Assembly (NCBI RefSeq): GCF_022179545.1
Contig: NZ_AP025518.1
Coordinates: forward strand, 868,001 to 932,000
Reading direction: 5' to 3'
DNA length: 64,000 nt
Source of the DNA: Mycolicibacterium fortuitum subsp. fortuitum
Lineage (GTDB): Bacteria > Actinomycetota > Actinomycetes > Mycobacteriales > Mycobacteriaceae
This document shows, in pieces, positions 11,678 to 57,106 of the stretch (the stretch's first letter is position 1; every line of letters starts with the position of its first letter). The position numbers and the translations under genes were made by a program. The notes beneath the pieces are model-generated. The model worked only from the letters and a program-made list of their open reading frames with translations. It did not search any database and was not told the DNA's origin.

Positions 11678-11695
11678 AGTTGATTCCGACCTCCT

Positions 11696-11709: not shown

Positions 11710-11789
11710 TGACCTTCCCGTTCACGCGTCATCGCAGTTCAATGTGGGCAACAGCCAAGGAATTCACTGACCTAAGGACGGCTCGCAAC

Positions 11790-26065: not shown

Positions 26066-27649
26066 TCAGTTGCTGGTGAATTCGAGGCTGAACCGCTGCC
26101 GCAGATCGCGTTTGAGCAGTTTGCCGCTGGGGTTCTTCGGCAGCGAGTCGACGAAGAACACCTGTTTGGGAGTCTTGAAGCCGGCGAGGTGGCCGCGGCA
26201 GTGACGCAATACGTCTTCTTCGGTCAGGCTGGAGCCCGCCCGGGGCACCACCGCGGCGACCACGGCCTCCACCCACACCGGGTGGGCCACACCGAACACC
26301 GCTACTTCCTCGATGCCCTTGTGCCGGTACAGAACTTCTTCGACCTCACGGCTGGCGACGTTTTCTCCGCCGGTTTTGATCATGTCCTTCTTGCGATCGA
26401 CGACGTGCAACAGCCCGTGCTCGTCGTAGAAGCCCAGATCGCCGGAGTGGAACCATCCGCCGGCGAAGGCCTGGGCGGTCTTGTCCTCGTCGTCGAGATA
26501 GCCCAGCATCAGATGGGGACTACGGTGGGCGATTTCACCGACGGTGCCGGGCGCGACCGGCACGTCGTTGTCGTCGAGAATCACGGTCTCGACGTTGACG
26601 ACGGGCCGCCCCGCAGCCCCGGCGTGAGCGTCCTGCTCAGCAGGTCCAAGGGCAGATGCCAGCGGTGCCATCTCTGTCTGGCCGTAGAAGTTCCACAGGC
26701 GAAGGTTGGGCAGCCGCCGGCGCATCTCGTGCAGGATCTCGGTCGGCATCGGCGAGGCACCGTAATAACCCTTGCGCAGGCTCGAGAGGTCCACCTCGTC
26801 GAACACCGGGCTGCGCAGCAGGCTTATCCATACCGTCGGTGGGGCAAAGTAATTGGTCACACCGTGCCGTTCGATCGTGCGAAGCACCAGTTCCGGATCT
26901 GGGCGCGGCAGGATGATGCTGGTAGCACCCAGGTAGACGTCGGTGGCCAGGAAGTTGTCCAGCTGGGCGCAGTGATACAGCGGCAGGGAATGGATTTCGA
27001 CATCATCGCCGGACATCGAGCCCGCCACGATGGTGCTGATGTACTGCCACATCAAGCTGCGGCTGCTGTGCATCACACCCTTGGGGCGCGACTCGGTGCC
27101 GCTGGTGTACATCACCCGCAGCAGCTGGTCGTCGTCGATCCGGCAATCGGGAACATCCGCGGTGGTGGTGAGCCATTCGTCGAAACTCGCCCAACCCGAG
27201 GGGCTGGATCCGCCGGTGGACGTCAGCGCGACCTTCCTGGTCACGGCCGAGGAGACCATGGCCTGTTCGGCCACGGGCACCAGGTCATCCTCGACGATGA
27301 ATCCGGTGGCGTGACTGTGCCCGAGGATGTAGGAGATCTCTTCCGGCGTCAGCATGAAGTTGATCGGCACCAGGACCACACCGGCGCGGGCGGTGGCGAA
27401 TGCCAGCACCGCGTACTGCCAGCAGTTGCGTGACAACAGCGCGACCCGGGCACCGGGAAGCAGGCCGTTCTCGTGCAATGCGGCCGCCGCGCGGTCCACC
27501 AGATGATCGAACTCGGCGAAACTCAGTACCACGTCGCCGTCGATGATCGCCGTTTTGTCCGGCTGCTTTCGCGCCGATCTGCGGGGGATGTCGGCGAGAC
27601 TGTGACTGCGGGCCCGGGCGATGACGGCGGCCAGGTCGTCAGAATGCAT
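26066..27649 (-). CDS. Acyl-CoA synthetase, AMP-forming (FadD-like)
   Basis: A 527-aa ANL-superfamily ligase from ATG 27649 (GTG 27667 is possible). Motifs are the P-loop VMYTSGTESRPKGVMHSSRS, WNFYGQTEMAP (A5), the A7/A8 region GWFHSGDLGFYDEHGLLHVVDRKKDMIKTGGENV and the catalytic Lys region NPSGKLLKRDL near the C-terminus. It activates a carboxylic acid to its CoA ester, here probably a steroid-derived acid. It is the first gene of the long minus-strand run, divergent from the BVMO at 27753 across 103 bp. Confidence 0.94.
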   Translation of the reverse strand: MHSDDLAAVIARARSHSLADIPRRSARKQPDKTAIIDGDVVLSFAEFDHLVDRAAAALHENGLLPGARVALLSRNCWQYAVLAFATARAGVVLVPINFMLTPEEISYILGHSHATGFIVEDDLVPVAEQAMVSSAVTRKVALTSTGGSSPSGWASFDEWLTTTADVPDCRIDDDQLLRVMYTSGTESRPKGVMHSSRSLMWQYISTIVAGSMSGDDVEIHSLPLYHCAQLDNFLATDVYLGATSIILPRPDPELVLRTIERHGVTNYFAPPTVWISLLRSPVFDEVDLSSLRKGYYGASPMPTEILHEMRRRLPNLRLWNFYGQTEMAPLASALGPAEQDAHAGAAGRPVVNVETVILDDNDVPVAPGTVGEIAHRSPHLMLGYLDDEDKTAQAFAGGWFHSGDLGFYDEHGLLHVVDRKKDMIKTGGENVASREVEEVLYRHKGIEEVAVFGVAHPVWVEAVVAAVVPRAGSSLTEEDVLRHCRGHLAGFKTPKQVFFVDSLPKNPSGKLLKRDLRQRFSLEFTSN

Positions 27650-27752
27650 GATCGGCAGAGTAGGCACGCGAGAGGCGGCCGCGGTGGTTTGTCTCCCGCT
27701 CAGTAGACAGGATGGGCGCGGGCGAGGGGCTGATCCTTCGATACTCGATCAC

Positions 27753-29678
27753 ATGACCGCTACCACTGAATCCTCGTCACTCGCGGATCGTTCCCCAGAC
27801 CCCGATGTTCTGCGCACCCATCTTCTGGAGGCGGACGCCGGTGTCCTGGTTGCAGTGTTGGCGCAGATGACAGGCGACGCATCCGTCATCGATCGATATG
27901 AAGCCAAGATCGACCATGTTCCCGATCCGCCCGAGCGGGCCGGATCGACCGATCGCAAGACCGCCGAGAACCTGGCCGACGAAATCATTGCGGCGCTGGG
28001 CGACCGACGTCCTGCCAATGCGTTACCCGTCGATGACCGCGACTTCTTCGCACGCTTACTGCCGATCGCTTTGGGCGGCCCTGTCGACGACGAGCATGTC
28101 GACCTGCTGTTGGAACAAGGGGGTTTTCGCCCGTCGCAGCCCACGTTGCCCCGTACTACGCCGATTCCTGAGACCACGACTGTGGCGATCATCGGTGCGG
28201 GCATCGCAGGTCTGGCGGTGGCACTGGCCGCGGCCGAGGAAGGCGTGCAATTCCAGATTTTCGACCGCAACGACGAGGTCGGCGGAACCTGGTTGACCAC
28301 AAGGTATCCGGGGATCGGTGTGGACACCCCTTCGGCGTACTACTCGTTGTCGCGTGAGGTGAACCCGGATTGGTCGAACTACTACCCCCAGGGTGCGGAG
28401 TACCAGGCATACCTGGTCTCACTGGCCGACAAGCACGACCTGCGGAGCCACATCCGGTTCGGAACCGAGGTCGAGGCGTTGTGGTGGGACGAGGAACGAC
28501 AGCAGTGGGAGATCCGCTCCCGTTCGGCGGACGGTACCCAGAACATCGACTACGCCGCTGTCGTCGTCACCGCTGCTGGTTATCTGAACCGCCCCCGCTT
28601 CCCGGACCTGAAGGGACGGGACAGCTTTGCGGGCACGAGCATTCACTCCGCACAATGGGACCCGGAGATCGACCTGGCTGGTAAGAAAGTCGCAGTGATC
28701 GGTGCCGGTTGCACTGCGGTGCAGATCGTCGACGCGAGCGTCGACGAGGTCGAACATCTGACGGTATTCCAGCGTCAGCCGCACTGGGTGGCCCCCCGTA
28801 AGCGTCTTTCCGACGAGGTCCCCGAACACCGGCGTTACCTGGGCCGAGTGCTGCCGTATTACGCGATGTGGCATCGGCTCAAGTCCTACTGGGCCACCGC
28901 AGACAACAACTACCCGATCATCTTGCAGGACCCGGAGTGGTCGAAGACCCACTTGTCGATCTCGCCTGCCAACGACGTGCTGCTGCAGATGTGCCTGGAG
29001 TACATCGACCGGATGTTCGGCGCCGGAAGTGAATTGGCGCAGAAGGTCACCCCTGATTTCGCGCCGTACGGCAAGCGGATCATCCGCGATCCTGGTGGTT
29101 ATTACGCTGCACTGACCCGCGACCATGTTGACGTGGAGGCCAGTGAACCCGCGGAGGTCAACGAAGCAGGGATCGTCACCGTCGACGGGCGGCAGATCGA
29201 TCTCGACGTCATCATCTACGCGACGGGCTACCACCTGGATTTCCTGTCCACCGTCGACATTCGGGGCCGTGACGGCAAGGCTCTGGTCGAGGTGTGGGGT
29301 GACAGTCCCCGGGCGTACCGGGGCGGCACCGTACCGGGCTTCCCGAATTTGTTCATCACTTCCGCGCCGAACTACAGCCCGGGCCATGGTGCAGGAGCGA
29401 ACTTCTCGATGGAGATTCTCGCGCATTACATCGTGGAGTGCCTGCAACTGATGGCATTACGCGGTGCGTCGACGATGGAGGTCACTCAGAAGGCCTTCGA
29501 GGACTATGTCGACGGGATCGACCAGGCCATGCAGGGTACGGTGTGGTGCCATACGCCCAACGCCCACACCTATTACCGCTCGGGGTCCGGTCGCGTCGTG
29601 GTGGCCACGCCGTATCGTCTGGTGGATCTGTGGCACCAACACCGGGCGCCCATCGAGCAGGATTTCAACCTCCGATGA
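27753..29678 (+). CDS. Baeyer-Villiger monooxygenase, long (HAPMO-like) type
   Basis: A 641-aa class B flavoprotein monooxygenase that would insert oxygen next to a ketone to give an ester or lactone, using NADPH. FAD motif IIGAGIAGLAV is at about residues 146-156, the BVMO fingerprint FAGTSIHSAQW at 292-302, and the NADPH motif VAVIGAGCTAVQIV follows. The roughly 140-residue N-terminal extension before the FAD motif matches the 4-hydroxyacetophenone-monooxygenase subgroup (about 640 aa). A steroid ketone (C-17 or side chain) is a plausible substrate. The SDR start overlaps its stop. Confidence 0.92.
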   Translation: MTATTESSSLADRSPDPDVLRTHLLEADAGVLVAVLAQMTGDASVIDRYEAKIDHVPDPPERAGSTDRKTAENLADEIIAALGDRRPANALPVDDRDFFARLLPIALGGPVDDEHVDLLLEQGGFRPSQPTLPRTTPIPETTTVAIIGAGIAGLAVALAAAEEGVQFQIFDRNDEVGGTWLTTRYPGIGVDTPSAYYSLSREVNPDWSNYYPQGAEYQAYLVSLADKHDLRSHIRFGTEVEALWWDEERQQWEIRSRSADGTQNIDYAAVVVTAAGYLNRPRFPDLKGRDSFAGTSIHSAQWDPEIDLAGKKVAVIGAGCTAVQIVDASVDEVEHLTVFQRQPHWVAPRKRLSDEVPEHRRYLGRVLPYYAMWHRLKSYWATADNNYPIILQDPEWSKTHLSISPANDVLLQMCLEYIDRMFGAGSELAQKVTPDFAPYGKRIIRDPGGYYAALTRDHVDVEASEPAEVNEAGIVTVDGRQIDLDVIIYATGYHLDFLSTVDIRGRDGKALVEVWGDSPRAYRGGTVPGFPNLFITSAPNYSPGHGAGANFSMEILAHYIVECLQLMALRGASTMEVTQKAFEDYVDGIDQAMQGTVWCHTPNAHTYYRSGSGRVVVATPYRLVDLWHQHRAPIEQDFNLR

Positions 29679-35105: not shown

Positions 35106-36053
35106 TCACGTTCTTGCCTCGTTGTGCGCTCGGTGGTGCGCTTGGATGGCCGGTGCGTGTCGCGCGACGAGCGAACTGGCATATTCGGCAAACCCGACAA
35201 CGCTGGCGCCGATGTTCCGCACCTCTTCGACGGTGAGCTGCTTGTACGGCTGTGCGGACACCGACATCACAACGTCGCCGTCCGCATCGAAAATCGGCGC
35301 AGAGATCGTGGCGAGTGGGTGCTGCGCGATCTTGTTCAGCTCACCGGGTAAGAAGTCGATGATCGTCAAGTCGGCGACGGCGCCTGCCAGCCGTGCTGCC
35401 ACAGGATCTTCCGCGGTGGTGTCTTCGAGTGCGAGCAGGGCTGCGAACACTTTGAGTAGCGGATCGCTGAGTCGTTCGATGCCGTATCCGCGCCGCTGAA
35501 CCTCCTTGAGGACCTTGGGCATTCGCGCCCGATAGACGTCATTGACCGGACCGGCTGCGGCCAACCACTCTTCGCGCACGGTCGTCGGCGCCCACGCCAC
35601 GAACTCTCGACCGAACGGCGCCACGAACGGCAGCCGCACCCCGGCTTGCACCGGCGGGCGGCTTGCACCGGGGGCGGCCGATTCGATCACGGCCAGCCGG
35701 CCGTCGCTGAGTTCCGAAATGCATGCGGCCATACCGATGGCCGAGCACAGCTGCCGCAATGGCTCGCGCAGCATTCGCGACAGCGGTGCCGCCCGTGGGG
35801 TGGTCGTGGGAAGGCCCGCGCCCAGGCTGTACTTCCCGCTCAGCGGGTCACGCAAGACCCAGTCGCACGAGCACAGCGTGGTCAAGATCGCATGACCGGT
35901 GGATCGGCTGATATCCAGCTCGCGGCATATTTCTGCCAGGGTCAGGTGACTGTCCGCTCGGTCGGCGAGCAACTCGACGACGGCGACGACGCGGCGAGTC
36001 GGTGGTGACGGGTCTTGACCCCGTTCGTCAGGCTGGCCTAGCTTGGCGTTCAT
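35106..36053 (-). CDS. IclR-family transcriptional regulator
   Basis: A regulator of about 315 aa: wHTH RRVVAVVELLADRADSHLTLAEICRELDISRSTGHAILTTL near the N-terminus, and an effector domain that is diverged (GRLAVIESAAPGASRPPVQAGVRLPFVAPFGREFVAW). It matches the IclR family less closely than the other two in this window. Start is ATG 36053 or GTG 36065; neither has a ribosome site, and the mRNA may be leaderless. It is divergent from the sulfotransferase operon across an AT-rich inverted repeat and probably regulates that operon. Confidence 0.88.
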   Translation of the reverse strand: MNAKLGQPDERGQDPSPPTRRVVAVVELLADRADSHLTLAEICRELDISRSTGHAILTTLCSCDWVLRDPLSGKYSLGAGLPTTTPRAAPLSRMLREPLRQLCSAIGMAACISELSDGRLAVIESAAPGASRPPVQAGVRLPFVAPFGREFVAWAPTTVREEWLAAAGPVNDVYRARMPKVLKEVQRRGYGIERLSDPLLKVFAALLALEDTTAEDPVAARLAGAVADLTIIDFLPGELNKIAQHPLATISAPIFDADGDVVMSVSAQPYKQLTVEEVRNIGASVVGFAEYASSLVARHAPAIQAHHRAHNEART

Positions 36054-36080
36054 ATATTCGGACACTACAACGAATATTCG
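36054..36080. promoter_or_regulatory. AT-rich operator between iclR and the sulfotransferase operon
   Basis: ATATTCG at 36054-36060 is repeated inverted inside the perfect palindrome CGAATATTCG at 36071-36080, with 10 bases between. The site abuts the iclR start codon and lies about 35 bases upstream of the sulfotransferase start. Probably bound by the divergent IclR protein. Confidence 0.65.
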
Positions 36081-36111: not shown

Positions 36112-37365
36112 GTGCCTAACAGTGCACTGAGCATCGAGGATCTGACGGTTCCCGAGCTCACCCCGATGCAGCGAGAGGTTCTCGTAGGGCTGGAGAACCT
36201 CTCGGTGGACCTCGATCCGGCCGCCATGATCGCCGAAGCGATGGAGAAGACGGGGCTGGACGACTTCGGGTCTGACGATTTCCACCCGCGACTCGGCGCC
36301 TACGCCGGGGCAGTGGATGTAGACAGCGGCAACACGAATCTCAACCGCTTCATTCTGCGAAACCGAATTGTTCGGTTGCTCTCGCAACGGTTGTTGTTGA
36401 CAGATCTGCTGCGTCGCTACCCCGAGATCCACGACGTCGAAATCGAACGTCCGATCATCGTCGTCGGGCTACCACGCTCGGGGACAACGCATCTCGTCAA
36501 CCTCATCGCGTCCGATCCCAGGCGGCGCGCGTTGCCGTATTGGGAGAGCCAGGAACCTTTCCCGATGCACGGTGAAGGTCCTGACGTCAACGGCGTGGAC
36601 CCGAGATTCGCGCGCAGTGTCGCCGAGCACGAGTCGGCAATGGTCATGACGCCACTGGTGCAGTACATGCACGACCGATTTCCGCAGGCGATCGAGGAGG
36701 AAGTCGAGATCCTCGATCTGGACTTCGCGAGCTATGTGCTGGAGTGGCATTGCCGAGTGCCGCAATGGCGCGATGTCTATCTGGGATTGGATCAGGACCA
36801 GCATTACGGTTATCTACGTACGGTTCTCAAGGCCCTGACGTTCTTACGCGGTCCGCGTCAGTGGGTGCTGAAGTCGCCGCAACACTGTGAGCAACTCGGA
36901 CCGCTGACACGCACGTTCCCGGATGCCACCGTCGCGTTCACCCACCGGGACCCCGTCGCCGTCATCCAATCCGCGGTCACGATGCTGGCGTACGGAGATC
37001 GGATGCGGCGTACGGAGATCGATCCGGAAGGGCTGGTGGACTACTGGATCGACCGGATCGAGCGGCTGCTGCGGGCTTGTGTGCGCGACCGGGATCTGAT
37101 CGGCCCGGACCGCAGCGTCGACATCGGGTTCCATCAGCTCAACGGCAACGAGATTCCGATTCTCGAAACGTTGTACGGCTACAACGGGACTGCGTTGACC
37201 GAAGATACCCGGGCGGCGTTTGCCCGCTACCTGCATGACAACCCGCGGGGCAAACACGGCCAAATACGGTATGACCTCCGACGCCACTTCGGCCGGACAC
37301 CGGGCCAGGTCCGGTCACGCTTCGGGTTCTACTTCGACCGATTCGACGTACGGGAGGAAGCGTGA
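36112..37365 (+). CDS. Sulfotransferase-family protein
   Basis: A 417-aa protein with the PAPS 5'-phosphosulfate loop PIIVVGLPRSGTTHLVNLIASDP (about residues 113-135), the 3'-phosphate region VLKSPQHCEQLGPLTRTFPDATVAFTHRDPVAVIQS and a C-terminal RSRFGFYFDRF. It resembles the Sulfotransfer_3 family abundant in mycobacteria, which may sulfate sterols or lipids. Start GTG 36112 follows GAAGGAG. First gene of an operon with overlapping starts through to the isomerase. Its association with an alkylsulfatase-like gene suggests sulfated steroid handling, which is an inference. Confidence 0.9.
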   Translation: MPNSALSIEDLTVPELTPMQREVLVGLENLSVDLDPAAMIAEAMEKTGLDDFGSDDFHPRLGAYAGAVDVDSGNTNLNRFILRNRIVRLLSQRLLLTDLLRRYPEIHDVEIERPIIVVGLPRSGTTHLVNLIASDPRRRALPYWESQEPFPMHGEGPDVNGVDPRFARSVAEHESAMVMTPLVQYMHDRFPQAIEEEVEILDLDFASYVLEWHCRVPQWRDVYLGLDQDQHYGYLRTVLKALTFLRGPRQWVLKSPQHCEQLGPLTRTFPDATVAFTHRDPVAVIQSAVTMLAYGDRMRRTEIDPEGLVDYWIDRIERLLRACVRDRDLIGPDRSVDIGFHQLNGNEIPILETLYGYNGTALTEDTRAAFARYLHDNPRGKHGQIRYDLRRHFGRTPGQVRSRFGFYFDRFDVREEA

Positions 37366-38606
37366 CCAGTTACCAACCCGCATATCTGAGCCGCCCGGGG
37401 GCCGACGACATCGTCGGGGCGGGTGCGCCGGCAACGGAAGTAGCGCCGGGTATTTGGCTCTCGCCAGGCCTGTCGAACTCTTATCTGCTGACGACCGATG
37501 CCGGCCGGATCGTGCTGAACACCGGGATGGGTTTCGAGGGGCCCGTGCACCGGGCCAACTATGACGCCATCGACACCGCGCCGATCCGCTACGTCATCCT
37601 GACCCAAGGGCATGTCGACCACGTCGGTGGCCTCGACACCGTCGCCGACTCCGAGAGCGAGATCGTCGCCCAGGCCAACTGGGAAACGTGGCGGCGCGAT
37701 AACGACCTGTTGGCCGACTTCCGGGCCAGGAACTCGGCGTTCGCGTGGGTCGACAAGGTGATGGACACGATCGAGCGCACGGCGGCACGATTCGGGCCTC
37801 CGCCACCGCAGAGCGTTCCTGCCCCGACGATCGTCGTCGACGACGAACTCGTCATCGAACTCGGCGGGCGCCGTTTGGAGCTTTATGCCACCCCCGGTGG
37901 TGAGACCACCGACAGCATGGTGGTGTGGCTTCCACAAGAAGGGGTCTGCCTGTGCGGCAACGTCTTCGGCGCGTTGTTCGGGCACATTCCGAACCTGGTG
38001 ACGATGCGCGGGGACCGCTATCGGGATGCGCTGACGGTGGTCGAGTCCATCGAGCGGGTCCGCGCGCTGGGTGCCGAGACGTTGCTCACCGGACATTTCG
38101 GGCCGATCGTAGGCAAAGACCGGATCGAGTGGGAGTTGACGCGACTGCGTGACGCGGTGATGTACCTGCACGATCAAACTGTCGCGGGGATGAACGCAGG
38201 CAAGGACGTGCACACCTTGATGCGGGAAGTGGTACTGCCGCCCGAACTTGATGTGGGCCAAGGCTACGGCATGGTCCGGTGGAACGTGCGGGCCATCTGG
38301 GAGAACTACGCCGGCTGGTTCCATCATCGCTCCACGGCCGAACTCTATGCCGAGGCTCCGAGCGTCACCGAGGCCGATCTGCTCGAACTCGTCGGCACAG
38401 CCGCAGTTCTCGGCCGCGCCCGCGCACTGCGCGACGCCGGTGAACCGGTGCGTGCCATCCGTCTGGCCGAGATGGTGCATCGGGCCGAGCCCGATGACGG
38501 GGAGGCCAAGCAGGTGTTGATCGCTGCTCATCAGGATCTCCTGCAGGGCAGCACGAATTTCTGGGAAGCGGCCTGGCTGCGCGAAAAGATCAAGGAACTC
38601 TCATGA
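37362..38606 (+). CDS. Metallo-beta-lactamase-fold protein, alkylsulfatase-like, first metal His replaced
   Basis: A 414-aa protein with an MBL domain followed by the alkylsulfatase dimerisation-type helical region (VTEADLLELVGTAAVLGRARALRDAGEPVRAIRLAEMV, then HQDLLQGSTNFWEAAWLR). The canonical HxHxDH motif reads Gln82-Gly-His84-Val-Asp86-His87, so one zinc-1 ligand is missing. The later GNVFGALFGHIPNL and LTGHFGPIVG segments match SdsA-like alkylsulfatases. Its activity may be altered or lost, or a different ester may be hydrolysed. Start ATG overlaps the sulfotransferase stop. Confidence 0.85.
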   Translation: MTSYQPAYLSRPGADDIVGAGAPATEVAPGIWLSPGLSNSYLLTTDAGRIVLNTGMGFEGPVHRANYDAIDTAPIRYVILTQGHVDHVGGLDTVADSESEIVAQANWETWRRDNDLLADFRARNSAFAWVDKVMDTIERTAARFGPPPPQSVPAPTIVVDDELVIELGGRRLELYATPGGETTDSMVVWLPQEGVCLCGNVFGALFGHIPNLVTMRGDRYRDALTVVESIERVRALGAETLLTGHFGPIVGKDRIEWELTRLRDAVMYLHDQTVAGMNAGKDVHTLMREVVLPPELDVGQGYGMVRWNVRAIWENYAGWFHHRSTAELYAEAPSVTEADLLELVGTAAVLGRARALRDAGEPVRAIRLAEMVHRAEPDDGEAKQVLIAAHQDLLQGSTNFWEAAWLREKIKELS

Positions 38607-39352
38607 CAAACCGTGTGCTGTTCGACTTCTCCGGTACGACTGCCCTCGTGACCGGAGGCACCAGCGGGATCGGCCATGCCACCGCATCGCTTCTCAGAGA
38701 CAGTGGCGCGGAGGTGACGATCACCGGCACGAGAGGCGGGCCAGAAGAGTACGACGTCGACCTGTCGGGACTGAAGTATCGACAGCTGGCGCTGACCGAT
38801 GCGAACGGAATCGATGCGTTGGCAGCAGAATTCACCGAACTGGATGTCCTGATCAACAACGCCGGGGCCAACTTCCCTGGTGGGCTCGACGAATCGACGC
38901 CGGAGGGTTTCACCGAGTCGGTGGCCGTCAATCTGCTGGCGCCATTCCGGCTGACCGAACGGCTGTACGGCGCACTGAAATCGTCGAACGCGCCGGGCGG
39001 GGCCAGCGTGATCATGTTCGCTTCCATGGCGGCCATCCGGTCGGTACCGGTGGTGCCCGGGTACGGATCGGCGAAGGCGGGAGTGCTCGCGCTCACCCGC
39101 AACCTGGCCGTGAAATGGGCGGGTGACGGCATCCGCGTCAACGCCGTCGTGCCAGGACTCGTGGCCACCCGCATGACGGCGCCGATGGACTACGTGCCGG
39201 AGATCAAACAGGAACAGGTGGACCACATTCCGCTCGGACGGTTCGCCACGCCGGAGGAGATCGCCAGTCCCATCCTCTACCTGTGCAGTGGAAACGCCTC
39301 GTACAACACCGGATCGGCGCTCGTCGTCGACGGTGGCTACAGCGTGCTCTGA
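38603..39352 (+). CDS. Short-chain dehydrogenase/reductase
   Basis: A 249-aa classical SDR: TGGTSGIG (17-24), NNAG in INNAGANFPGG, Ser in MFASMAA, active-site YGSAK and VDGGYSVL end. The second strand ends ITGTRG, suggesting NADP(H) rather than NAD(H) because Arg replaces Asp. ATGA overlap with the alkylsulfatase-like gene. In this operon it likely oxidises or reduces a hydroxysteroid before the isomerase step. Confidence 0.92.
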   Translation: MTNRVLFDFSGTTALVTGGTSGIGHATASLLRDSGAEVTITGTRGGPEEYDVDLSGLKYRQLALTDANGIDALAAEFTELDVLINNAGANFPGGLDESTPEGFTESVAVNLLAPFRLTERLYGALKSSNAPGGASVIMFASMAAIRSVPVVPGYGSAKAGVLALTRNLAVKWAGDGIRVNAVVPGLVATRMTAPMDYVPEIKQEQVDHIPLGRFATPEEIASPILYLCSGNASYNTGSALVVDGGYSVL

Positions 39353-39386
39353 GTGATTCAACGACATCGATGGGAAGGAACTTTTC

Positions 39387-40403
39387 GTGAGAGCAGCCAT
39401 CATTACCGCCCCCGACAAAACGGAGATCGTCGACGTACCGACGCCCGAGATAGGGCCCAATGACGTTCTGGTGAGGATCCGAGCCTGCGGAATCTGTGGT
39501 TCCGACACGCTCTACATCTCCATCGGTGGATTACCACCACGGCACGGCTGTATGCCGATCGGCCACGAGCCGGCCGGTGAGGTGCTGCAGGTCGGCCGCG
39601 AGGTGCGCGACATCGCGGTCGGTGACCGGGTGGTGGTCAATCCCATGGCAATCGCCGATGACATCATCGGCAACGGCGGTTCGACCGGTGCGCTGGCCGA
39701 TTACCTGCTGATCAAGGATGCCGTTCGGGGTCAGAGCCTCGAGGTGGTGCCCGACCACATCCCGTACGAGGTCGCGGCCCTCAACGAGCCCATGGCGGTT
39801 GCCCTTCACGCGGTGAACCAGGTGGCTCCTCAGCCGAGTGACCAGGTGCTCGTGCTCGGAGCCGGGCCCATCGGCCTGGGCATCACGATCGCCTTGAAAT
39901 CGAGGGGAGTCAAACACGTTGTGGTGGCGGATATTCTGCCGTCGCGCCTGGAGAAAGCACTGAAAGTCGGCGCGGATGCGGTGATCAACTCCAGGGACGA
40001 GGACGTCGTCGCGCGATTGATCGAACTGCACGGTCCAGGGGATTCGATGTGGCCGAACAAGGCCGGCACGGACGTGTTCCTGGACGCCGCTGGCGTTCCG
40101 GCGGCAGTCGAAACCGCCCTCGCCGCTGCCAAGCGAGGAGCCAAGCTCGGCATCGTGGCGGTTCACAAAGAGCCGATCGGCATCGACTTCATGAACCTGA
40201 TGAGCAACGAACTCACGATCATCGGTTCGATGGGCTATCCCACCGAGATCTTCGAGGTGACCAAGGACATCATCGACAACTGGGAGAAATATCAGCTGAT
40301 CATCAGCCACACCTTCGATTTCGTCGATCTGGACCAGGCATTGCAGTGTGTGGCCACCCCGGGCGCGGCCGACAAGGTCGTCATCACGATGCGCGGTGAA
40401 TGA
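39387..40403 (+). CDS. Zinc-type alcohol dehydrogenase (MDR)
   Basis: A 338-aa medium-chain dehydrogenase starting at GTG 39387 after GGAAGGAA. Catalytic zinc ligands are Cys in ACGICGSD and His in IGHEPAGE. The four-Cys structural zinc lobe is absent: the segment reads VVVNPMAIADDIIGNGG. The nucleotide motif is LVLGAGPIGLGITIALKS followed by VVADIL, suggesting NAD. It overlaps the isomerase start (ATGA) and probably oxidises a hydroxyl group whose ketone is then isomerised. Confidence 0.9.
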   Translation: MRAAIITAPDKTEIVDVPTPEIGPNDVLVRIRACGICGSDTLYISIGGLPPRHGCMPIGHEPAGEVLQVGREVRDIAVGDRVVVNPMAIADDIIGNGGSTGALADYLLIKDAVRGQSLEVVPDHIPYEVAALNEPMAVALHAVNQVAPQPSDQVLVLGAGPIGLGITIALKSRGVKHVVVADILPSRLEKALKVGADAVINSRDEDVVARLIELHGPGDSMWPNKAGTDVFLDAAGVPAAVETALAAAKRGAKLGIVAVHKEPIGIDFMNLMSNELTIIGSMGYPTEIFEVTKDIIDNWEKYQLIISHTFDFVDLDQALQCVATPGAADKVVITMRGE

Positions 40404-40780
40404 TGCCGTCAACCAAAGATGACCAGATTGCCCATACGATTCGTCGCTACGTCTCGCTGCTCGCGACCGGAAGCACCGATGATCTCCTGGAGCTGTTCGC
40501 CGAAGACGCGACCGTGGAGGATCCGGTAGGCAGTGATGTCCGCGCCGGCCGGAATGAGATCCGCGAATTCTTCTCCACCTTGCAGCAATTGGAGCGTCAG
40601 ACCGAGCTGGTCCTGCTCCGTGTGGTCGGGAACGAGGCAGCGTTCTCGTTCACCATCACCTTCAAGGTCGGCGACACCCCGATGCGCCTGCAGCCGATCG
40701 ACACGATGACATTCGACGGGCACGGCAAGATCACCTCGGTGCGAAGCTATTTCGCGCCCGCGGACCTCGCCGAGGTATAA
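40400..40780 (+). CDS. Delta5-3-ketosteroid isomerase (KSI)
   Basis: A 126-aa NTF2-fold protein that closely follows bacterial steroid isomerases: RRYVSLLATGSTDDLLELFAEDATVEDPVGSD, NEAAFSFTITFKV and LQPIDTMTFDGHGKI. The catalytic residues map as Tyr17 (Tyr14 of the Comamonas enzyme), Asp41 (Asp38, proton shuttle) and Asp101 (Asp99, oxyanion acid). It would move the C5-C6 double bond of 5-ene-3-ketosteroids to C4-C5. Start ATG 40400 (ATG 40403 also possible) overlaps the ADH stop; last gene before the terminator. Confidence 0.9.
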   Translation: MMPSTKDDQIAHTIRRYVSLLATGSTDDLLELFAEDATVEDPVGSDVRAGRNEIREFFSTLQQLERQTELVLLRVVGNEAAFSFTITFKVGDTPMRLQPIDTMTFDGHGKITSVRSYFAPADLAEV

Positions 40781-40792
40781 CAGCCCGAACCT

Positions 40793-40835
40793 GAAGAAGG
40801 TCGCGAGATTTCTCCAGAATCTCGCGACCTTCTTC
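40793..40835. terminator. Bidirectional hairpin terminator
   Basis: Perfect 18-base arms, beginning GAAGAAGGTCG and ending CGACCTTCTTC, around the loop TCTCCAG. It stands between the convergent isomerase (stop 40780) and the minus-strand flavoprotein (stop 40850). The outer GAAGAA/TTCTTC pair gives a T-rich tract on both strands. Confidence 0.92.
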
Positions 40836-40849
40836 ACGTTGGGCAGCGG

Positions 40850-42316
40850 CTACGCCTTGGCCGCGGCCCGTCCTGCCCGGCGACCGTAGAAACTTCCGTC
40901 GCCCAGTGACACCCCGCTGGCATAGCCGTAGGCCGCCAGGCCCGCAGTACAGCGCCCGGCCGCGAACAAACCCGGGATAGGCTTGCCGCTGACATGGAGC
41001 ACCTCGGCATCGAGGGTCGTGTGCAGCCCGCCGAGGGTGAAACCGCCGGTGCTCTCGCGGAGATCGATGGCGCCCACAGGAGATTTGATCGGCTTGAGCC
41101 ACTGCGATTTCTTGTGCAGCAGCGGGTCCTCGCCGCGGGCAGCCCCCTCGTTGTAGGCATCGACGGTGGCTTGCAGTGAGTTCGGTGGCAGCCCGATCTC
41201 AGCCTCCAGGTCGGCGACGGTGTCGGCCACCCAGGTCGGCGGCCGCATCATCAGCTGGGGAGAGAGCGAGGCCATCGCCTCCTCCTGGGCGTCGCCGTCG
41301 ATGATCAGATACGCCGTGTTGTTCTGGTGGTACAGCGTCAACTGGCCGGCGCGACCGGGATAGGTGTCCTCGGCGACATAACGCTGCCCACGTTCGTTCA
41401 CCAAAATGCCGCGCACCAACTGCTGGGGATCGATGAACAACGCCACCTCGGTGGCGTCCATGTGTGCCAGGTCCGCGCCGAGCGCCTGCGCCATCCGGAT
41501 GGCCTGCCCATCGTGCTGCTCGATCGAGGCGGCCGGGCGCCCCGCGATGCGCGGCGCGTACTGGGAGACCATGGCGTCGTTATAGGCGAAACTGCCGGTG
41601 GCCAGGACAACTCCGCGGCGCGCCCGGATGTCCATCGTCGTGCCGTAACGGCGGGTCCGGATGCCGACGACCCGGCCGTCGGATTCGACGATCAGGGCCA
41701 CCACCCGCACGTCATAGAGCGAACGTGCTCCGGCCGCGGTTGCGGTGTCGACAAGGCCTTTCATCAGCATGTAACCCGCGCTGGACTCGCCCTGCTTCTT
41801 GTTCTGCATCTGCGGGACGTGCCCGCGCGGAGCCGGTGTGGCAATGGTGTTGAACGGATACGAGTTCTCGCCACCGCTGTACATGAGGCCCTGGTCGCCC
41901 ATCGGCTCCCAGCCTGGCTCGCCGAAGAACTCCGCTTTGAACGGTACGCCGCAGCCGACGAGCCAATCGAAGTGCGCGACGCTGCCCTCGCAGTAGTCGG
42001 CGATGCGCGCGGCGTCCGCGCCGGGTCCCATGGCCGCGTTGAGAAACGCGGTCATGTTGTCGACGGAATCATCGAAGCCGCAAGCTTTTTGGATCTCTGT
42101 CCCACCGCCGAGGTAGATGAAGCCACCTGCCATGGAGGCGGCTCCGCCCCATGAGCCGGTGCGTTCCAGAACCAGTACGTCGGCTCCCGCACGTGTTGCC
42201 TCTACCGCAGCGGCCGCGCCGGCAACGCCGTAACCGGCGATCACCACGTCAGCCTCGTCGGCCCACTCGGTGACCGTGCCGGCCGGGATGGGTCGGATGT
42301 CGTCGGTGACTGTCAT
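40850..42316 (-). CDS. FAD-dependent 3-ketosteroid dehydrogenase/fumarate-reductase-like flavoprotein
   Basis: A 488-aa flavoprotein of the KstD/fumarate-reductase superfamily: VVIAGYGVAGAAAAVEATRAGADVLVLERTGSWGGAASMAGGFIYLGGG at the N-terminus, RARRGVVLATGSFAYND, and the C-terminal PIPGLFAAGRCTAGLAAYGYASGVSLGDGSFYGRRAG. It is more distant from KstD than 9944-11677, so a delta4- or other ring dehydrogenase is possible; substrate is not decidable. Start ATG 42316 overlaps the HsaC-like stop (ATGA), so it belongs to the hsaA-hsaC run. Confidence 0.85.
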   Translation of the reverse strand: MTVTDDIRPIPAGTVTEWADEADVVIAGYGVAGAAAAVEATRAGADVLVLERTGSWGGAASMAGGFIYLGGGTEIQKACGFDDSVDNMTAFLNAAMGPGADAARIADYCEGSVAHFDWLVGCGVPFKAEFFGEPGWEPMGDQGLMYSGGENSYPFNTIATPAPRGHVPQMQNKKQGESSAGYMLMKGLVDTATAAGARSLYDVRVVALIVESDGRVVGIRTRRYGTTMDIRARRGVVLATGSFAYNDAMVSQYAPRIAGRPAASIEQHDGQAIRMAQALGADLAHMDATEVALFIDPQQLVRGILVNERGQRYVAEDTYPGRAGQLTLYHQNNTAYLIIDGDAQEEAMASLSPQLMMRPPTWVADTVADLEAEIGLPPNSLQATVDAYNEGAARGEDPLLHKKSQWLKPIKSPVGAIDLRESTGGFTLGGLHTTLDAEVLHVSGKPIPGLFAAGRCTAGLAAYGYASGVSLGDGSFYGRRAGRAAAKA

Positions 42317-43221
42317 GGTTGCATGGCCTTCGGTAGATCGGTGACCCACTGGTGTCCCCAGTAGCTGTCGGCAGTGATTTCCTCTGCTGTGTAATAGGTT
42401 TCGTCGACCCGCATGCCTTCGGTGCCGAACTCGATGTCCCAGTCACCCGGAGCACGCACATAGAAGGACACCATCTTGTCGTTGGTGTGCCGGCCCAGCG
42501 TGGAGGACAACTGGAAGCCCTCGGCGTTCACCCGGTCCAGGGCCTGACCGACCGCGTCGAGCGTATCCACTTCGACCATGAGGTGGATCAAACCGGGATC
42601 ACGCAGCGTTTGCGCGGGGCAGATGGCCAGGCTGTGATGGCGCTCGTTGACGCCCATGAACCGGACCCGCACCGGGCCGAACTCCGGCGGCACCGGGACG
42701 CGGAATGCTCCGCGGGACTTGAAACCCAGTACCTCGGTGTAGAACTCGAACAACCCCGGAACGTCGAGGGCGGGCAGTACTACGTGGCCGAGGCCTTGCG
42801 CCCCGGTGACGAACTTCGCACCGAACGGCGTGATGACGGGGGAGTGGTCGAGTACGGGTCCGTGGAACACCTCCAGCGCGGTACCGGCGGGATCCTCGAA
42901 AGCGATGACTTCTTCCACCCGGCGCGCGTCGGCCTCTTGCAATGACAGCTGTTTGAACGGAACGCCAGCGGCATCCAGTGCGCTCTTCACCAACTCCAGG
43001 TCGGCGTGGTCGCGCACTTCCCAGCCGACGGTCACGATCTTGTCTACCTCTCCGGGCACGACGATGATGCGCGCGGCACGCTCGTCCATCCGCAGGTACA
43101 GCGCGGACTCGTCCGGTCCCGTGCCGGTCGCGAAGCCGAGCACGTTGAAGGCGAAGTGCCGCCAGCGTTCGATATCAGAGGCGGCGACGGTGACGTAGCC
43201 GAGGCTCTTGATCAATCCCAT
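42313..43221 (-). CDS. hsaC: Extradiol dioxygenase, HsaC/BphC-like
   Basis: A 302-aa two-domain VOC-fold type I extradiol dioxygenase that meta-cleaves the catechol 3,4-DHSA to 4,9-DSHA in steroid breakdown. Iron ligands are His146 (GLGHVVL), His213 (LIHLMVEV) and Glu264 (WDIEFGTEG). The second-sphere HHSLA (His195, His196), His245 and Tyr254 are conserved. Length equals M. tuberculosis HsaC (300 aa), which it resembles through GYVTV, ALYLRMD, VVPGE and EVFHGP blocks. It sits 12 bp after hsaA. Confidence 0.92.
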   Translation of the reverse strand: MGLIKSLGYVTVAASDIERWRHFAFNVLGFATGTGPDESALYLRMDERAARIIVVPGEVDKIVTVGWEVRDHADLELVKSALDAAGVPFKQLSLQEADARRVEEVIAFEDPAGTALEVFHGPVLDHSPVITPFGAKFVTGAQGLGHVVLPALDVPGLFEFYTEVLGFKSRGAFRVPVPPEFGPVRVRFMGVNERHHSLAICPAQTLRDPGLIHLMVEVDTLDAVGQALDRVNAEGFQLSSTLGRHTNDKMVSFYVRAPGDWDIEFGTEGMRVDETYYTAEEITADSYWGHQWVTDLPKAMQP

Positions 43222-43233
43222 GTGGCTGTCCTC

Positions 43234-44427
43234 TCAGATCATCGCCCGCAGTGGGCCCTGCGGGTCCACACCCAGTGAGCTGAGGGCCGAAGCGTGATAA
43301 ACCGTGCCGGGCACGTGAATGGCATGAGCTTGGCCGACGTGCACGTCGCGCCAATAGCGTTGCAGCGGTTTGTCCATCCGCGCAGCGTTGCCGCCGCAGC
43401 GGGCGAAGATCTCGTCGACCGCTGACACCGCGCGCCACACCGCCCGAACCTGGGTGCGGCGGCCCGCGGCGCGGTCTTCGAAGGAGACCTCTTTACCTGA
43501 GTCGACGATGTCGTAGATGCGGTCGGCGTTGGCCAGCAGTTCCTGCCGAGCCGCGTTGATGTCCGCGGCCGCCTCGCCGATCGCGTACATGACGTAGGGA
43601 TCGTCCTTGATCGCCACACCGCTGGAGTTGACCCGCTCGCGCTGGTAATCGAGTGCAGCGGCCAGCGCGCCCTCGGCGATGCCGATGGTCGCCGAGCTGA
43701 TGCCGAGAGGGAACATCGTCGACCACGGCATCAGGTACAGCGTTTCGGTCATCCCGGCCTCGCGCTGGGCAGTGCCATCCATGACCTTCATCGCGTCCAT
43801 CGTCCGGTACGTCGGTACGAACGCATCCTTGACGATGACGTCCTTGGAGCCGGTTCCGCGCAGCCCCACGACATTCCACGAGTCCTCCACGATCTCGTAG
43901 TCCTGGCGCGGCAGGATCATGTGCAGCATCTGCGGTGGCATGATGGGTACGGACTCGGCGCCGGGTTCATTGCTGGCGAGCATCGCGCCCAGGAAGATCC
44001 AGTCGCAGTGATCGGTGCCCGAGCTGAACTGCCAGCGGCCGTTGAAGATGTAGCCGCCGTCGACAGGCTTGGCTACCCCCTGAGGTGCGTAGGGAGAGGC
44101 GACCCACGTGTCGACGTCCTCGGCCCAGATCTCGGCGGCGACCTTCGGGTCGGCGTACGCGAGTTGGTACGGGTGCACGCCGACAACGCCGTTGATCCAG
44201 CCGGCCGAGGGATCCAGCGCCGCGGTGGCCATGACGGTCTCGGCGAACTCACGCGGATGCACCTCCAAGCCACCATGAGACTTCGGCTGCAACAGGCGGA
44301 TATTGCCTGCCGCCTTCATCATCTTGACGGTCTCGTCGGTGAGCTTGCCGATCTTCTCGGCTTCGGCGCCCTGGTGGCGCAACTGGTCGGCGAGGTCGCG
44401 CACCCGGTCGATTACGCGCTCAGTCAT
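43234..44427 (-). CDS. hsaA: 3-HSA hydroxylase oxygenase, HsaA-like
   Basis: A 397-aa flavin-dependent group D monooxygenase with ACAD fold: RLLQPKSHGGLEVHPREFAETVMATAALDPSAGWINGVVGVHPYQLA near the N-terminus, FNGRWQFSSGTDHCDWIFLGAM in the barrel, and the C-terminal RYWRDVHVGQAHAIHVPGTVYHASALSSLGVDPQGP. It 4-hydroxylates 3-HSA with reduced flavin from an HsaB reductase, probably 8596-9120 (34 kb away; no reductase is adjacent). Length matches HsaA (394 aa). A 100-bp gap separates it from kshB upstream. Confidence 0.9.
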   Translation of the reverse strand: MTERVIDRVRDLADQLRHQGAEAEKIGKLTDETVKMMKAAGNIRLLQPKSHGGLEVHPREFAETVMATAALDPSAGWINGVVGVHPYQLAYADPKVAAEIWAEDVDTWVASPYAPQGVAKPVDGGYIFNGRWQFSSGTDHCDWIFLGAMLASNEPGAESVPIMPPQMLHMILPRQDYEIVEDSWNVVGLRGTGSKDVIVKDAFVPTYRTMDAMKVMDGTAQREAGMTETLYLMPWSTMFPLGISSATIGIAEGALAAALDYQRERVNSSGVAIKDDPYVMYAIGEAAADINAARQELLANADRIYDIVDSGKEVSFEDRAAGRRTQVRAVWRAVSAVDEIFARCGGNAARMDKPLQRYWRDVHVGQAHAIHVPGTVYHASALSSLGVDPQGPLRAMI

Positions 44428-45592: not shown

Positions 45593-45738
45593 GGGCGGAG
45601 ATTCTGATGCAGGAGACGACGACGCCAACCCGGATCTTCCGGTGGCCGGGACACCGAGTCTCGCCGTCCGGTGACCGGGAATCGCGGCGGTCGAGTGCCC
45701 GACGAGCGCCTACCGTACGCCGGGTGAGCAGTGGATCG

Positions 45739-47337
45739 ATGAGCGTCGTAGATGTTGTAGTAGTGGGCGCCGGCTTCGGTGGCCTGTACGCGTTGCACAA
45801 GTTTCGGTCGCAGGGCCTGTCGGTACGAGTCTTCGAGGCCGCGCCGGAAGTGGGCGGCACGTGGTACTTCAACCGCTATCCAGGTGCGCGTTGCGACGTC
45901 GAGAGCGTCGACTACTGCTACTCGTTCTCCGATGAGCTCCAACAAGAATGGACCTGGACGGAGAAGTATGCGACGCAGGGCGAAATCCTGAAGTACATCA
46001 ACTGGGTCGCCGACAAGCTCGATCTGCGTCGCGACATCACGTTCGAGACGAGGGTGAGTTCAGCGGTGCTCGACGAGCAGACGCTGCGCTGGACCGTCAC
46101 CACCGATACCGGTGAATCGGTGGACGCGCGGTTTGTGGTCATGGCCACCGGGCCCTTGTCTGCGGCGATGACTCCTGACTTCCGCGGCCTGGATACCTTC
46201 GCAGGCGACGTCTACCACACCGCGCACTGGCCACACCAGGGCGTGGATTTCACCGGTAAGCGAGTCGCCGTGATCGGAACCGGATCGTCTGGTATCCAGT
46301 CCATTCCGATCATTGCAGAACAGGCGGAGCACCTGTATGTGTTTCAGCGAACCCCGAACTACAGTGTGCCGGCCGGCAACCGGCCGTTGACCGCCGAGGA
46401 GATCGCGGAGATCAAGGCCACCTATGCCGAGCGTCGCCGGATGTCCTGGCACAGCGGTGGCGGCTCGCCCCACGTCGCCCATCCCAAGCTGACCATGGAA
46501 GCCACGCCTGAAGAACGTCAGGAAGCCTTCGAAAAGCGTTGGGAATTAGGCGGCGTGCTGTTCTCGAAGACATTCACCGACCAGATGGTCTCACTGGAAG
46601 CCAACGAAGAAGCCCGCAAGTTCTACGAGAACAAGATCCGTGCCGTGATCGACGATCCGGACCTGGCCGAGTTGCTGATTCCCGACGATCACCCGATCGG
46701 CACAAAACGGATCTGCACCGACACCAACTACTTCCAGACGTTCAACCGGCGCAATGTCACGCTGGTGAGCGTCCGGAAAACGCCGATCGATTCGATCGAC
46801 GAATCCGGCATCAACACGTCTGACGCGCACTACGACATCGATGCGCTGGTACTGGCCACCGGGTTCGACGCGATGACCGGCACGCTGGCCAAGATCGACA
46901 TCGTTGGCCGCGGCGGAGAGAAGCTGGTGGACGACTGGGCCGACGGTCCACGTACCTACCTCGGCTTGGGCACCGACGGTTTCCCCAATTTGTTCCTGGT
47001 GTCCGGCCCCGGCGCACCCGCCGTACTGGCCAACATGGTTCTGCATGCCGAAGCGCATGTGAACTGGATCGCCGACGCCATCGCCTATCTCGATCAGAAC
47101 AGCTACGCGGCAATCGAACCGACGGCCGATGCCGTGGACAGCTGGATCGCCGAGTGCGCCCAGCGCGCCGAAGCCACCTTGTTCACCAAGGCCAACTCCT
47201 GGTACATGGGCGCCAACGTGCCCGGCAAGCCCCGGATGTTCATGCTGTTCATCGGCGGCTTCGGGACATACCTGGACATCTGCGACGCGGCCGCGGCGGC
47301 TGGATACAAGGGGTTCGATCTACTGAAGGCACCATAG
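45739..47337 (+). CDS. Baeyer-Villiger monooxygenase, CHMO-like
   Basis: A 532-aa class B flavin monooxygenase without N-terminal extension. FAD motif VVVGAGFGGLYALHKF is at 7-22, the EVGGTWYFNRYPGARCDVES block follows at 37-56, the fingerprint FAGDVYHTAHW is at 154-164, and the NADPH motif VAVIGTGSSGIQSI comes next. It converts a ketone to an ester or lactone. It leads a plus-strand operon of dehydrogenases and stands opposite kshB, so a steroid ketone is the likely substrate. GTG 45724 is an alternative start. A further extension to 45607 has no support. Confidence 0.93.
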   Translation: MSVVDVVVVGAGFGGLYALHKFRSQGLSVRVFEAAPEVGGTWYFNRYPGARCDVESVDYCYSFSDELQQEWTWTEKYATQGEILKYINWVADKLDLRRDITFETRVSSAVLDEQTLRWTVTTDTGESVDARFVVMATGPLSAAMTPDFRGLDTFAGDVYHTAHWPHQGVDFTGKRVAVIGTGSSGIQSIPIIAEQAEHLYVFQRTPNYSVPAGNRPLTAEEIAEIKATYAERRRMSWHSGGGSPHVAHPKLTMEATPEERQEAFEKRWELGGVLFSKTFTDQMVSLEANEEARKFYENKIRAVIDDPDLAELLIPDDHPIGTKRICTDTNYFQTFNRRNVTLVSVRKTPIDSIDESGINTSDAHYDIDALVLATGFDAMTGTLAKIDIVGRGGEKLVDDWADGPRTYLGLGTDGFPNLFLVSGPGAPAVLANMVLHAEAHVNWIADAIAYLDQNSYAAIEPTADAVDSWIAECAQRAEATLFTKANSWYMGANVPGKPRMFMLFIGGFGTYLDICDAAAAAGYKGFDLLKAP

Positions 47338-55320: not shown

Positions 55321-55475
55321 GGTGACTAGCGATCGCCGTGGACAGCGGGGCGGTATTCCCGGTGGGTGGGACACGCAATGGTGCGCCCGGGTGTGAACTG
55401 CGATTGTTCCCGGTCGAGACGTGTTCCAGGTCATACCGATGCCCGGATGACTCACACGCAGAAATGGAGAACTCG

Positions 55476-56246
55476 ATGCTGCAGCGGCAACTCGCCGGCC
55501 CACTCGAGGGGGTGGGTGGGTTGTTCGCCATGTCGGTGGATGCCGCCAGATTCACGGTGCGCGGACCCTTCCAATGGCGCGAATTCCTTGACCAGTCCTG
55601 GTTTGTGGCACGGGTGTCCATGGCGCCGACCCTGCTGGTGGCGATCCCGTTCACGGTGCTGGTGTCGTTCACCCTGAACATCCTGCTTCGCGAACTCGGT
55701 GCCGCAGACCTGTCCGGGGCCGGTGCGGCATTCGGCGCGGTGACCCAGGTGGGTCCCATGGTGACGGTGCTGATCGTGGCCGGCGCGGGGGCAACGGCGA
55801 TGTGTGCCGACCTGGGGTCGCGCACCGTCCGTGAAGAGATCGACGCGATGGAGGTGCTGGGCATCAACCCGATCCAGCGGCTGGTCACCCCGCGCATGCT
55901 GGCCTCGGGGCTGGTGGCGCTGCTGCTCAACAGCGTGGTGGTCATCATCGGAATCCTTGGCGGATACCTATTTTCGGTGTTCGTCCAAGACGTCAACCCC
56001 GGCGCGTTCGCGGCCGGAATCACCCTGCTCACCGGCATTCCGGAGGTCGTCATCTCCTGTGTCAAGGCGGCATTGTTCGGCCTGATCGCCGGACTGGTCG
56101 CGTGCTACCGCGGCCTCACCGTCTCAGGCGGTGGTGCCAAGGCCGTGGGCAATGCCGTCAACGAAACCGTGGTCTACGCATTCATGGCGTTGTTCGTGGT
56201 CAACGTGGTGGTCACCGCCATCGGTATCCAGATGACGACACGATGA
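55476..56246 (+). CDS. yrbEA: YrbE (MlaE-type) Mce permease subunit A
   Basis: A 256-aa integral membrane subunit of a Mce lipid importer. It has about five hydrophobic spans and the conserved cytosolic loop REEIDAMEVLGINPIQRLVTPRMLA (coupling to the MceG ATPase). Start ATG 55476 is supported by GGAGA seven bases upstream; ATG 55464, four codons earlier, is possible. It begins the mce operon and overlaps yrbEB by 4 bp (ATGA). ATPase and assembly genes (mceG) are not in the window. Confidence 0.95.
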   Translation: MLQRQLAGPLEGVGGLFAMSVDAARFTVRGPFQWREFLDQSWFVARVSMAPTLLVAIPFTVLVSFTLNILLRELGAADLSGAGAAFGAVTQVGPMVTVLIVAGAGATAMCADLGSRTVREEIDAMEVLGINPIQRLVTPRMLASGLVALLLNSVVVIIGILGGYLFSVFVQDVNPGAFAAGITLLTGIPEVVISCVKAALFGLIAGLVACYRGLTVSGGGAKAVGNAVNETVVYAFMALFVVNVVVTAIGIQMTTR

Positions 56247-57094: not shown

Positions 57095-57106
57095 AGAAGG
57101 CATCTG

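Follow-up and report, generated by a model that had tools for sequence, protein, structure and literature searches.

Within a 64,000-nucleotide stretch of the genome of Mycolicibacterium fortuitum subsp. fortuitum (NZ_AP025518.1, positions 868,001 to 932,000; from here on, the window, within which all positions are counted), five genes form a tight same-strand run at 36112 to 40780. We propose, with a probability of roughly 0.5, that four of them, encoding a sulfotransferase (ST), a metallo-β-lactamase (MBL)-fold alkylsulfatase-like protein (here referred to as MBL), a short-chain dehydrogenase/reductase (SDR), and an alcohol dehydrogenase (ADH), are the core of a cytosolic sulfo-activation module for alcohols. 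This proposal builds on the gene set itself, the conserved motifs of its proteins, the repeated linkage of its genes in other genomes, and the linkage of the module in two lineages to genes for synthesis of 3'-phosphoadenosine-5'-phosphosulfate (PAPS).

The original prediction of the five-gene run was confirmed by open reading frames (ORFs), Pfam matches, and gene overlaps. All five genes are on the + strand. The first, for a PAPS-type ST (36112 to 37365), was assigned by Pfam Sulfotransfer_3 (PF13469; 6e-32), a motif alignment, and relatives in the Protein Data Bank (PDB), while the second, for the MBL with its dimerization domain (37362 to 38606), was assigned by Pfam, a match to SdsA1, a structural model, and motifs. 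They are followed by genes for an SDR-family dehydrogenase (38603 to 39352; adh_short_C2, 2e-48), a Zn-dependent ADH similar to threonine, sorbitol, and butanediol dehydrogenases (39387 to 40403; ADH_zinc_N, 2e-23), and a ketosteroid isomerase (KSI)-like protein with a SnoaL/NTF2 fold (40400 to 40780; SnoaL_2, 3e-15; PDB 1buq). Based on the three 4-nt overlaps (ST/MBL, MBL/SDR, and ADH/KSI) and the 34-nt gap between SDR and ADH, the five genes are very likely cotranscribed. An alternative ST start is possible at an upstream TTG at 36043; in the close relatives L062 and L063, the first start falls at the counterpart of 36112. The best solved relative of the SDR is 8wwf, a DHPS dehydrogenase (2e-38), with many others close behind, and those of the ADH are polyol or threonine dehydrogenases. 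A substrate hint from these relatives was discarded because the matches are too unspecific.

The ST scores 112 bits against Sulfotransfer_3 (cut-off, 27 bits), which places it in the PF13469 family, of which the genome contains four genes, including that for the window ST. Three motifs, GxPRxGTT, WxLKxPxH, and HRDPxxxxxS, whose positions we take to be the PAPS motifs, are invariant in 14 aligned STs, of which the others are 25 to 81% identical to the window ST. The solved structures 2z6v (1.6e-31) and 2zq5 (1.3e-30), the M. avium STF9 and M. tuberculosis STF1 proteins, respectively (PDB titles, uncharacterized protein), are similar to the window ST in fold family and motif positions but are only distantly related to it (E value, about 1e-31).

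The MBL contains an MBL domain (Lactamase_B, 7e-16) followed by the dimerization domain Alkyl_sulf_dimr (PF14863, 7e-15), both above cut-off, and so has the domain layout of MBL-type alkylsulfatases in the wide sense. It matches SdsA1 over residues 26 to 405 (phmmer, 1.7e-24), and its AlphaFold model, with a mean predicted local distance difference test (pLDDT) score of 85, has Pisa1 as the best Foldseek match (6e-24), the 13 best Foldseek rows being alkylsulfatases or YjcS relatives. SdsA1, Pisa1, and SdsAP (SulfAtlas S3, type III), which have the MBL fold and the dimerization domain in common with the window MBL, are the nearest solved folds (template modeling score on the query, 0.76 to 0.79; root mean square deviation, about 5 Å), and features retained from them are the metal-motif Asp-His, the Glu that takes the place of His196, and, in the sulfate-binding loop, the half with Asn/Thr/Arg/Gly. 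However, the window MBL is 24 to 26% identical to Pisa1 and SdsA1 and 21% identical to SdsAP in structural alignments, has 414 residues compared to about 630 to 670, lacks a Pfam match for an SdsA1-type C-terminal domain, carries QxHxDH rather than HxHxDH, has lost the bridging Glu, has an insertion in the loop, and is nearly always found beside an ST.

QxHxDH is present in the window MBL and in 127/127 module hits, and HxHxDH in 0/127, with some loci counted twice in these numbers. Based on a motif match with SdsA1 and the ligand list for SdsAP (PMC5426288), the first metal His corresponds to Gln82 and the bridging Glu to Gly199 (Ser in some relatives); in that list, the metal ligands of SdsAP include both the first His and the bridging Glu. 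His84, Asp86, His87, and Glu181 are invariant in a 23-row MBL alignment, in which only L184 to L186 deviate at His245. In PMC5066984, family S3 is defined by HxHxDH and at least 30% identity to SdsA1 over about 600 residues; the window MBL, with QxHxDH, 26% identity in the structural alignment, and its shorter length, falls outside this definition. The same paper assigns the sulfate-binding loop of SdsA1 to Ala298-Arg317 and provides a pattern (PMC5066984), the 3' half of which is present in 22 of 23 alignment rows and 125/127 module hits; the full pattern is present in none of the module hits owing to the lost Glu and the insertion. The conserved loop reads Asn-Leu-x-Thr-x-Arg-Gly. Judged by these motifs, the MBL represents a distinct QxHxDH subfamily. 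At an E value of ≤1e-40, 4341 of 8000 candidates scored match the MBL; most carry the name "MBL fold hydrolase" or that of an "alkyl sulfatase," and they need not all belong to the QxHxDH subfamily.

The changes at the metal site are in agreement with an alternative in which the MBL has given up sulfatase activity and catalyzes another reaction (e.g., as a lyase or by hydrolyzing an ester or lactone) on another intermediate, while the ST product stays sulfated. The replacement of His by Gln in every module hit, the bridging Glu that the aligned relatives have lost, and the lack of the C-terminal domain would all fit such a change of function, but the widely retained half of the sulfate loop and the alkylsulfatases and YjcS relatives at the top of the Foldseek search argue against it. 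Moreover, GOB-type MBL enzymes have Gln at the place of the first His, bind zinc, and are active; GOB-18 itself was a weak local match only in the MBL search. We consider this alternative fairly unlikely.

The ST and MBL genes recur together. From a scan of species genomes that gave 421 relatives, we named the best 80 loci and divided them into group A (13 close loci with an identity of at least 67.5%) and group B (the other 67), with fetched flanks of up to 8 kb on each side, some shorter. ST is located just upstream of MBL, or one gene upstream, in 77 of the 80 named loci, while in the remaining 3, MBL starts 117 to 174 nt from a contig end. A scripted count of ST within 200 nt of MBL gave 13/13 loci in group A and 62/67 in group B; the five exceptions comprise three contig ends, L110, in which ADH lies between ST and MBL, and L113, for which the script measured a second module and in which the first ST and MBL are adjacent. 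SDR (at least 45% identity) is present in 66/80 named loci. At the genus level, 79 of 148 genomes have an MBL match at 1e-20, which in some is the long SdsA1-type relative only. A second mycobacterial module (group C) has identities of about 47% for MBL, about 51% for SDR, 60 to 66% for ADH, and 25 to 29% for ST. The match of a group C ST (L084) to 2z6v at 1.7e-220 suggests that 2z6v probably is the ST of a related ST-MBL module.

The linkage extends beyond the genus. In a phylum scan, 6 of 296 genomes match at 1e-50, and the three of these outside the genus, with genomes of 2.1 to 2.5 Mb, all have the order ADH-SDR-ST-MBL. The class of one of these matches, a distant class within the Actinobacteria, gave 38 matches in 37 of 296 genomes, of which we examined 36, leaving out 2 contig-edge fragments; 34 of these loci have QxHxDH and 2 have HxHxDH. 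ST is present at 31 of the 34 QxHxDH loci (within 100 nt at 29, behind ADH at L250, and cut by a contig end at L255). Four records match in a plasmid scan, three of which are sphingomonad plasmids with ST and MBL: the annotation of the Sphingobium RAC03 plasmid lists an SDR, a zinc-binding dehydrogenase, an alkylsulfatase-dimerization protein, and a sulfotransferase, the Sphingobium V4 plasmid has the same set, and in Novosphingobium RL4, ST adjoins MBL. The fourth match is from Mesorhizobium (29%). ADH relatives have identities of 37 to 40% in L184 to L186 and 40 to 41% in the two Sphingobium plasmids, in which the SDR is 26 to 27% identical to the window's nearest SDR.

Several gene orders were observed: ST-MBL-SDR-ADH, MBL-SDR-ST-ADH, ADH-SDR-ST-MBL, ST-ADH-MBL-SDR, and, in the two Sphingobium plasmids, SDR-ADH-MBL-ST. 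As controls, we used 21 HxHxDH relatives, i.e., 19 genus loci with long alkylsulfatase-like genes (L199 to L217; about 5 kb of flank per side, but about 0.9 kb on one side of L217) and the 2 class loci, and found ST near none of them. Since all 21 HxHxDH relatives have no ST nearby, ST linkage tracks the QxHxDH subfamily and not MBL alkylsulfatases in general. We note that the counts come from related, nonindependent genomes, and that independence rests on the occurrence in two phyla and in differing gene orders. Given the several orders, the two phyla, and the 0/21 controls, we reject the view that ST and MBL are adjacent by chance or by a single inherited arrangement.

CysD and CysNC make PAPS. 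In Nocardia carnea (L116), the module continues as ST-MBL-SDR-CysD-CysNC, with CysD and CysNC at 10014 to 12865, and one ORF past CysNC lies a gene that is 65% like that of the FAD-binding dehydrogenase in the window. In a small actinobacterial genome, seven genes on one strand have the order ADH-SDR-ST-MBL-P450-CysD-CysNC (L186:5091-13649). This linkage to PAPS genes in two lineages is a strong hint but no general rule. Cytochrome P450 genes lie near 8/80 named loci compared to 0/19 controls, a comparison that is not like for like because the control flanks are shorter, and P450 is directly 3' of MBL in L186, L256, and L264.

The predicted order of steps is as follows. The ST would transfer sulfate from PAPS onto the hydroxyl of a hydrophobic alcohol; the MBL would hold the sulfate ester by its Asn-Leu-x-Thr-x-Arg-Gly loop and break the C-O bond, with sulfate leaving and an inverted alcohol or an alkene as the product; and the SDR and ADH would oxidize hydroxyls of the substrate or the product. 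In the window lineage, the module would be joined to a steroid-like ring-degradation cluster, and the KSI would act on a 3-keto intermediate, shifting its double bond. We infer that, if two cosynthesized cytosolic enzymes simply attached sulfate and took it off again, the cycle would be futile except with cleavage at the C-O bond. Such enzymes would waste PAPS unless the removal alters the molecule, and C-O cleavage would alter it by inverting the carbon or leaving an alkene; for this reason, we prefer sulfo-activation over storage or scavenging.

A role in which sulfation serves to store or detoxify an alcohol reversibly, with the MBL freeing it later by S-O cleavage, could be reconciled with the gene set if ST and MBL acted at different times, as they could in principle; bacteria are known to modify metabolites by sulfation. 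Nevertheless, this role appears very unlikely: the 4-nt overlap of ST and MBL implies that they are made together, so that the cycle would burn PAPS, and Pisa1, an MBL-type alkylsulfatase with a worked-out mechanism, cuts the C-O bond (PMC3725421). There, inversion by Pisa1 was proven using enantiopure substrates and 18O labeling (PMC3725421). In the biocatalytic deracemization by Pisa1, the sulfate ester is the leaving group and the carbon is inverted, as proposed here for the sulfo-activation module; in contrast, the ester is supplied as the substrate in that process (PMC3725421), while the window module encodes a PAPS-type ST beside the enzyme.

Several observations weigh against sulfo-activation. 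The activities of the module enzymes are read from sequence. Both altered positions in the MBL correspond to SdsAP ligands, and the enzyme, therefore, may not hydrolyze sulfate esters; its sulfate loop (residues 207 to 220) has pLDDT values of <50 in the model, and His208, a residue that might serve as general acid, is not conserved in Sphingobium. ADH (at least 35% identity) is present in just 26/80 named loci and, thus, is not a constant member of the module. MBL without ST was found at L090 in the genus, 1.1 kb from a contig end, and at L267, L270, and L271, i.e., 3 of the 34 QxHxDH loci of the class. Among the loci searched for CysD/CysNC, just 2 have them linked, and no P450 match is present within the 64-kb window. 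Finally, PMC5066984 describes even the SdsA1 mechanism as ambiguous.

Taken more broadly, and more tentatively than the module itself, these data may point to an undescribed bacterial catabolic strategy, in which PAPS would be spent to activate an alcohol, in some lineages perhaps generated by the linked P450, as a sulfate ester, and a new QxHxDH MBL subfamily would expel sulfate by C-O cleavage, allowing inversion or dehydroxylation beyond the reach of dehydrogenases. This unit would be shared by Actinobacteria and sphingomonads, have its own PAPS genes in two lineages, and feed a steroid-like pathway here. No description of the ST and MBL pair was found in the open PubMed Central (PMC) literature, where absence is not absence from print; the parts belong to known families, while neither the coupled module nor the ST-linked QxHxDH subfamily was found described in that literature. 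Bacterial sulfation is mostly seen as decoration or signaling and sulfatases as scavengers. If the strategy exists, sulfation would be a catabolic step on a par with CoA or phosphate activation. It would also give a testable function to the solved, uncharacterized sulfotransferase structure 2z6v and to the large set of MBL matches counted above, and could yield enzyme pairs to invert or remove hydroxyl groups.

The original prediction had suggested, as a testable idea, a steroid-sulfate cycle serving protection, activation, or scavenging, and had described the last gene as a clear KSI. The latter description holds. The KSI-like protein matches the solved ketosteroid isomerase 1buq at 9e-25 and has kept Tyr17, Asp41, and Asp101, a Tyr and two Asp positions that we take to be the catalytic residues of KSI; 6p3l, which has Ser at the third position, outscores 1buq, and NCBIfam TIGR02096 gives 33 bits, below its cut-off of 97. 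The sequence assignment to KSI is, therefore, sound at the family level.

Three genes adjoin the operon on the - strand as lineage-specific neighbors: those for an FAD-binding dehydrogenase (40850 to 42349; NCBIfam NF005512, above cut-off), a BphC/HsaC-like extradiol dioxygenase (42313 to 43221; TIGR03213, 378.6 bits, cut-off 366; HsaC model, 358 bits, below its cut-off of 450), and an HsaA-like hydroxylase (43234 to 44427; HsaA model, 362 bits, below its cut-off of 450). An HsaC above cut-off (541 bits) is encoded at 5.64 Mb, while that of the window is at 0.91 Mb; the HsaA/HsaC-like genes beside the operon, thus, appear to be a second, divergent set. Compared to steroid-degradation clusters (KSI, HsaA, HsaC, and KshA), the window has a KSI relative in the operon and HsaA- and HsaC-like genes adjoining it, but the latter are below the model cut-offs, and most module relatives have no such genes in the fetched flanks.

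Using a threshold of at least 50% identity for ring-degradation genes (HsaA, BphC, or KshA type) and for KSI, we found ring-degradation genes in the flanks of 8/13 group A loci versus 1/67 in group B, and KSI in 8/13 versus 0/67, a contrast that is statistically weak because the group A loci share ancestry. L098, the nearest named relative, has ring genes and no KSI match. The concentration of KSI and ring genes in group A makes a steroid-like substrate plausible for the window lineage. On these counts, we reject a steroid-specific module, and the original steroid reading is too narrow, as the pair is not confined to a steroid cluster; what is supported is that ST and MBL recur as a pair and that, in the window lineage, the operon includes a KSI relative and adjoins HsaA-, HsaC/BphC-, and FAD-dehydrogenase-like genes, with an mce operon also in the window.

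In a steroid-sulfate cycle for protection or scavenging, SDR/ADH and KSI would yield a 4-en-3-one, and 3-hydroxysteroid dehydrogenase and KSI are the classical pair for 3-hydroxy-5-ene steroids. The ring-degradation genes of group A and the window mce operon with its CUP1 domains would suit such a cycle, but the near absence of KSI and ring genes from the 67 group B loci does not. Scavenging as by SdsA1, in particular, would need neither a PAPS-dependent ST nor PAPS genes, and it became less likely with the PAPS-synthesis genes in two lineages and the MBL, in which no signal peptide was apparent when judged by eye, without a predictor. Overall, we regard a steroid-sulfate cycle as unlikely and retain sulfo-activation as the preferred explanation.

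Upstream of the operon, an IclR-type regulator is encoded divergently at 35106 to 36065 (- strand; HTH_IclR, 5e-8), as originally predicted; its IclR_C effector domain had no Pfam match at an E value of 1e-3. Matches to the IclR-type gene are present at 10/13 group A loci versus 28/67 in group B. The palindrome ATATTCG-N10-CGAATAT (36054 to 36077), which lies upstream of ST and extends into the IclR gene at its 5' end, is a candidate IclR operator and the single site of its kind in the genome, allowing up to 1 mismatch. Of the 11 group A loci that have both IclR and ST, 7 share the same arms 10 nt apart, with variable spacer bases; another has the arms 12 nt apart, and the best palindromes of the other three are shorter, shifted, or unrelated to it. 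Of the 27 group B loci compared, none had this palindrome as its best one. By these sequence features, the IclR-type protein probably controls the operon via the palindrome.

At the other end of the operon, a 20-pair hairpin (40792 to 40836; -45.4 kcal/mol; z, -10.0 for 40775 to 40845) lies between convergent genes, which share it, its stem beginning 12 nt 3' of the KSI-like gene. Of the strong terminator proposed originally, the very stable hairpin was recovered, but a clear T-run is absent and the hairpin was not called by a terminator scan; owing to the missing T-run, we refer to it as terminator-like.

Elsewhere in the window, the mce-type operon (55338 to 63111) encodes two MlaE permeases and five MlaD/CUP1 proteins, genes for Baeyer-Villiger-type monooxygenases flank the region at 27621 to 29678 and 45607 to 47337, and mycofactocin-type SDRs and an old yellow enzyme weakly like BaiCD are also encoded. 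The Sphingobium RAC03 module likewise lies near a Baeyer-Villiger-type monooxygenase-like gene (L188:31732-33561). In group B (e.g., L131, L134, and L150), ST-MBL-SDR is often followed by genes for a glyoxalase-fold protein (31/67) and a luciferase-like monooxygenase (39/67), which suggests a different continuation of the pathway. One genome has a third module copy (L080:9694-10548), in which the ST frame is shortened (284 aa) and similarity is lost part-way. Two contigs titled as Bifidobacterium breve metagenome-assembled genomes (L118 and L141) carry a mycobacteria-like module (61 to 62% identity) and are probably misbinned. In another small actinobacterial genome, a bacteriorhodopsin-family gene (L184:3603-4343) precedes the four-gene set at a distance of about 1.5 kb.

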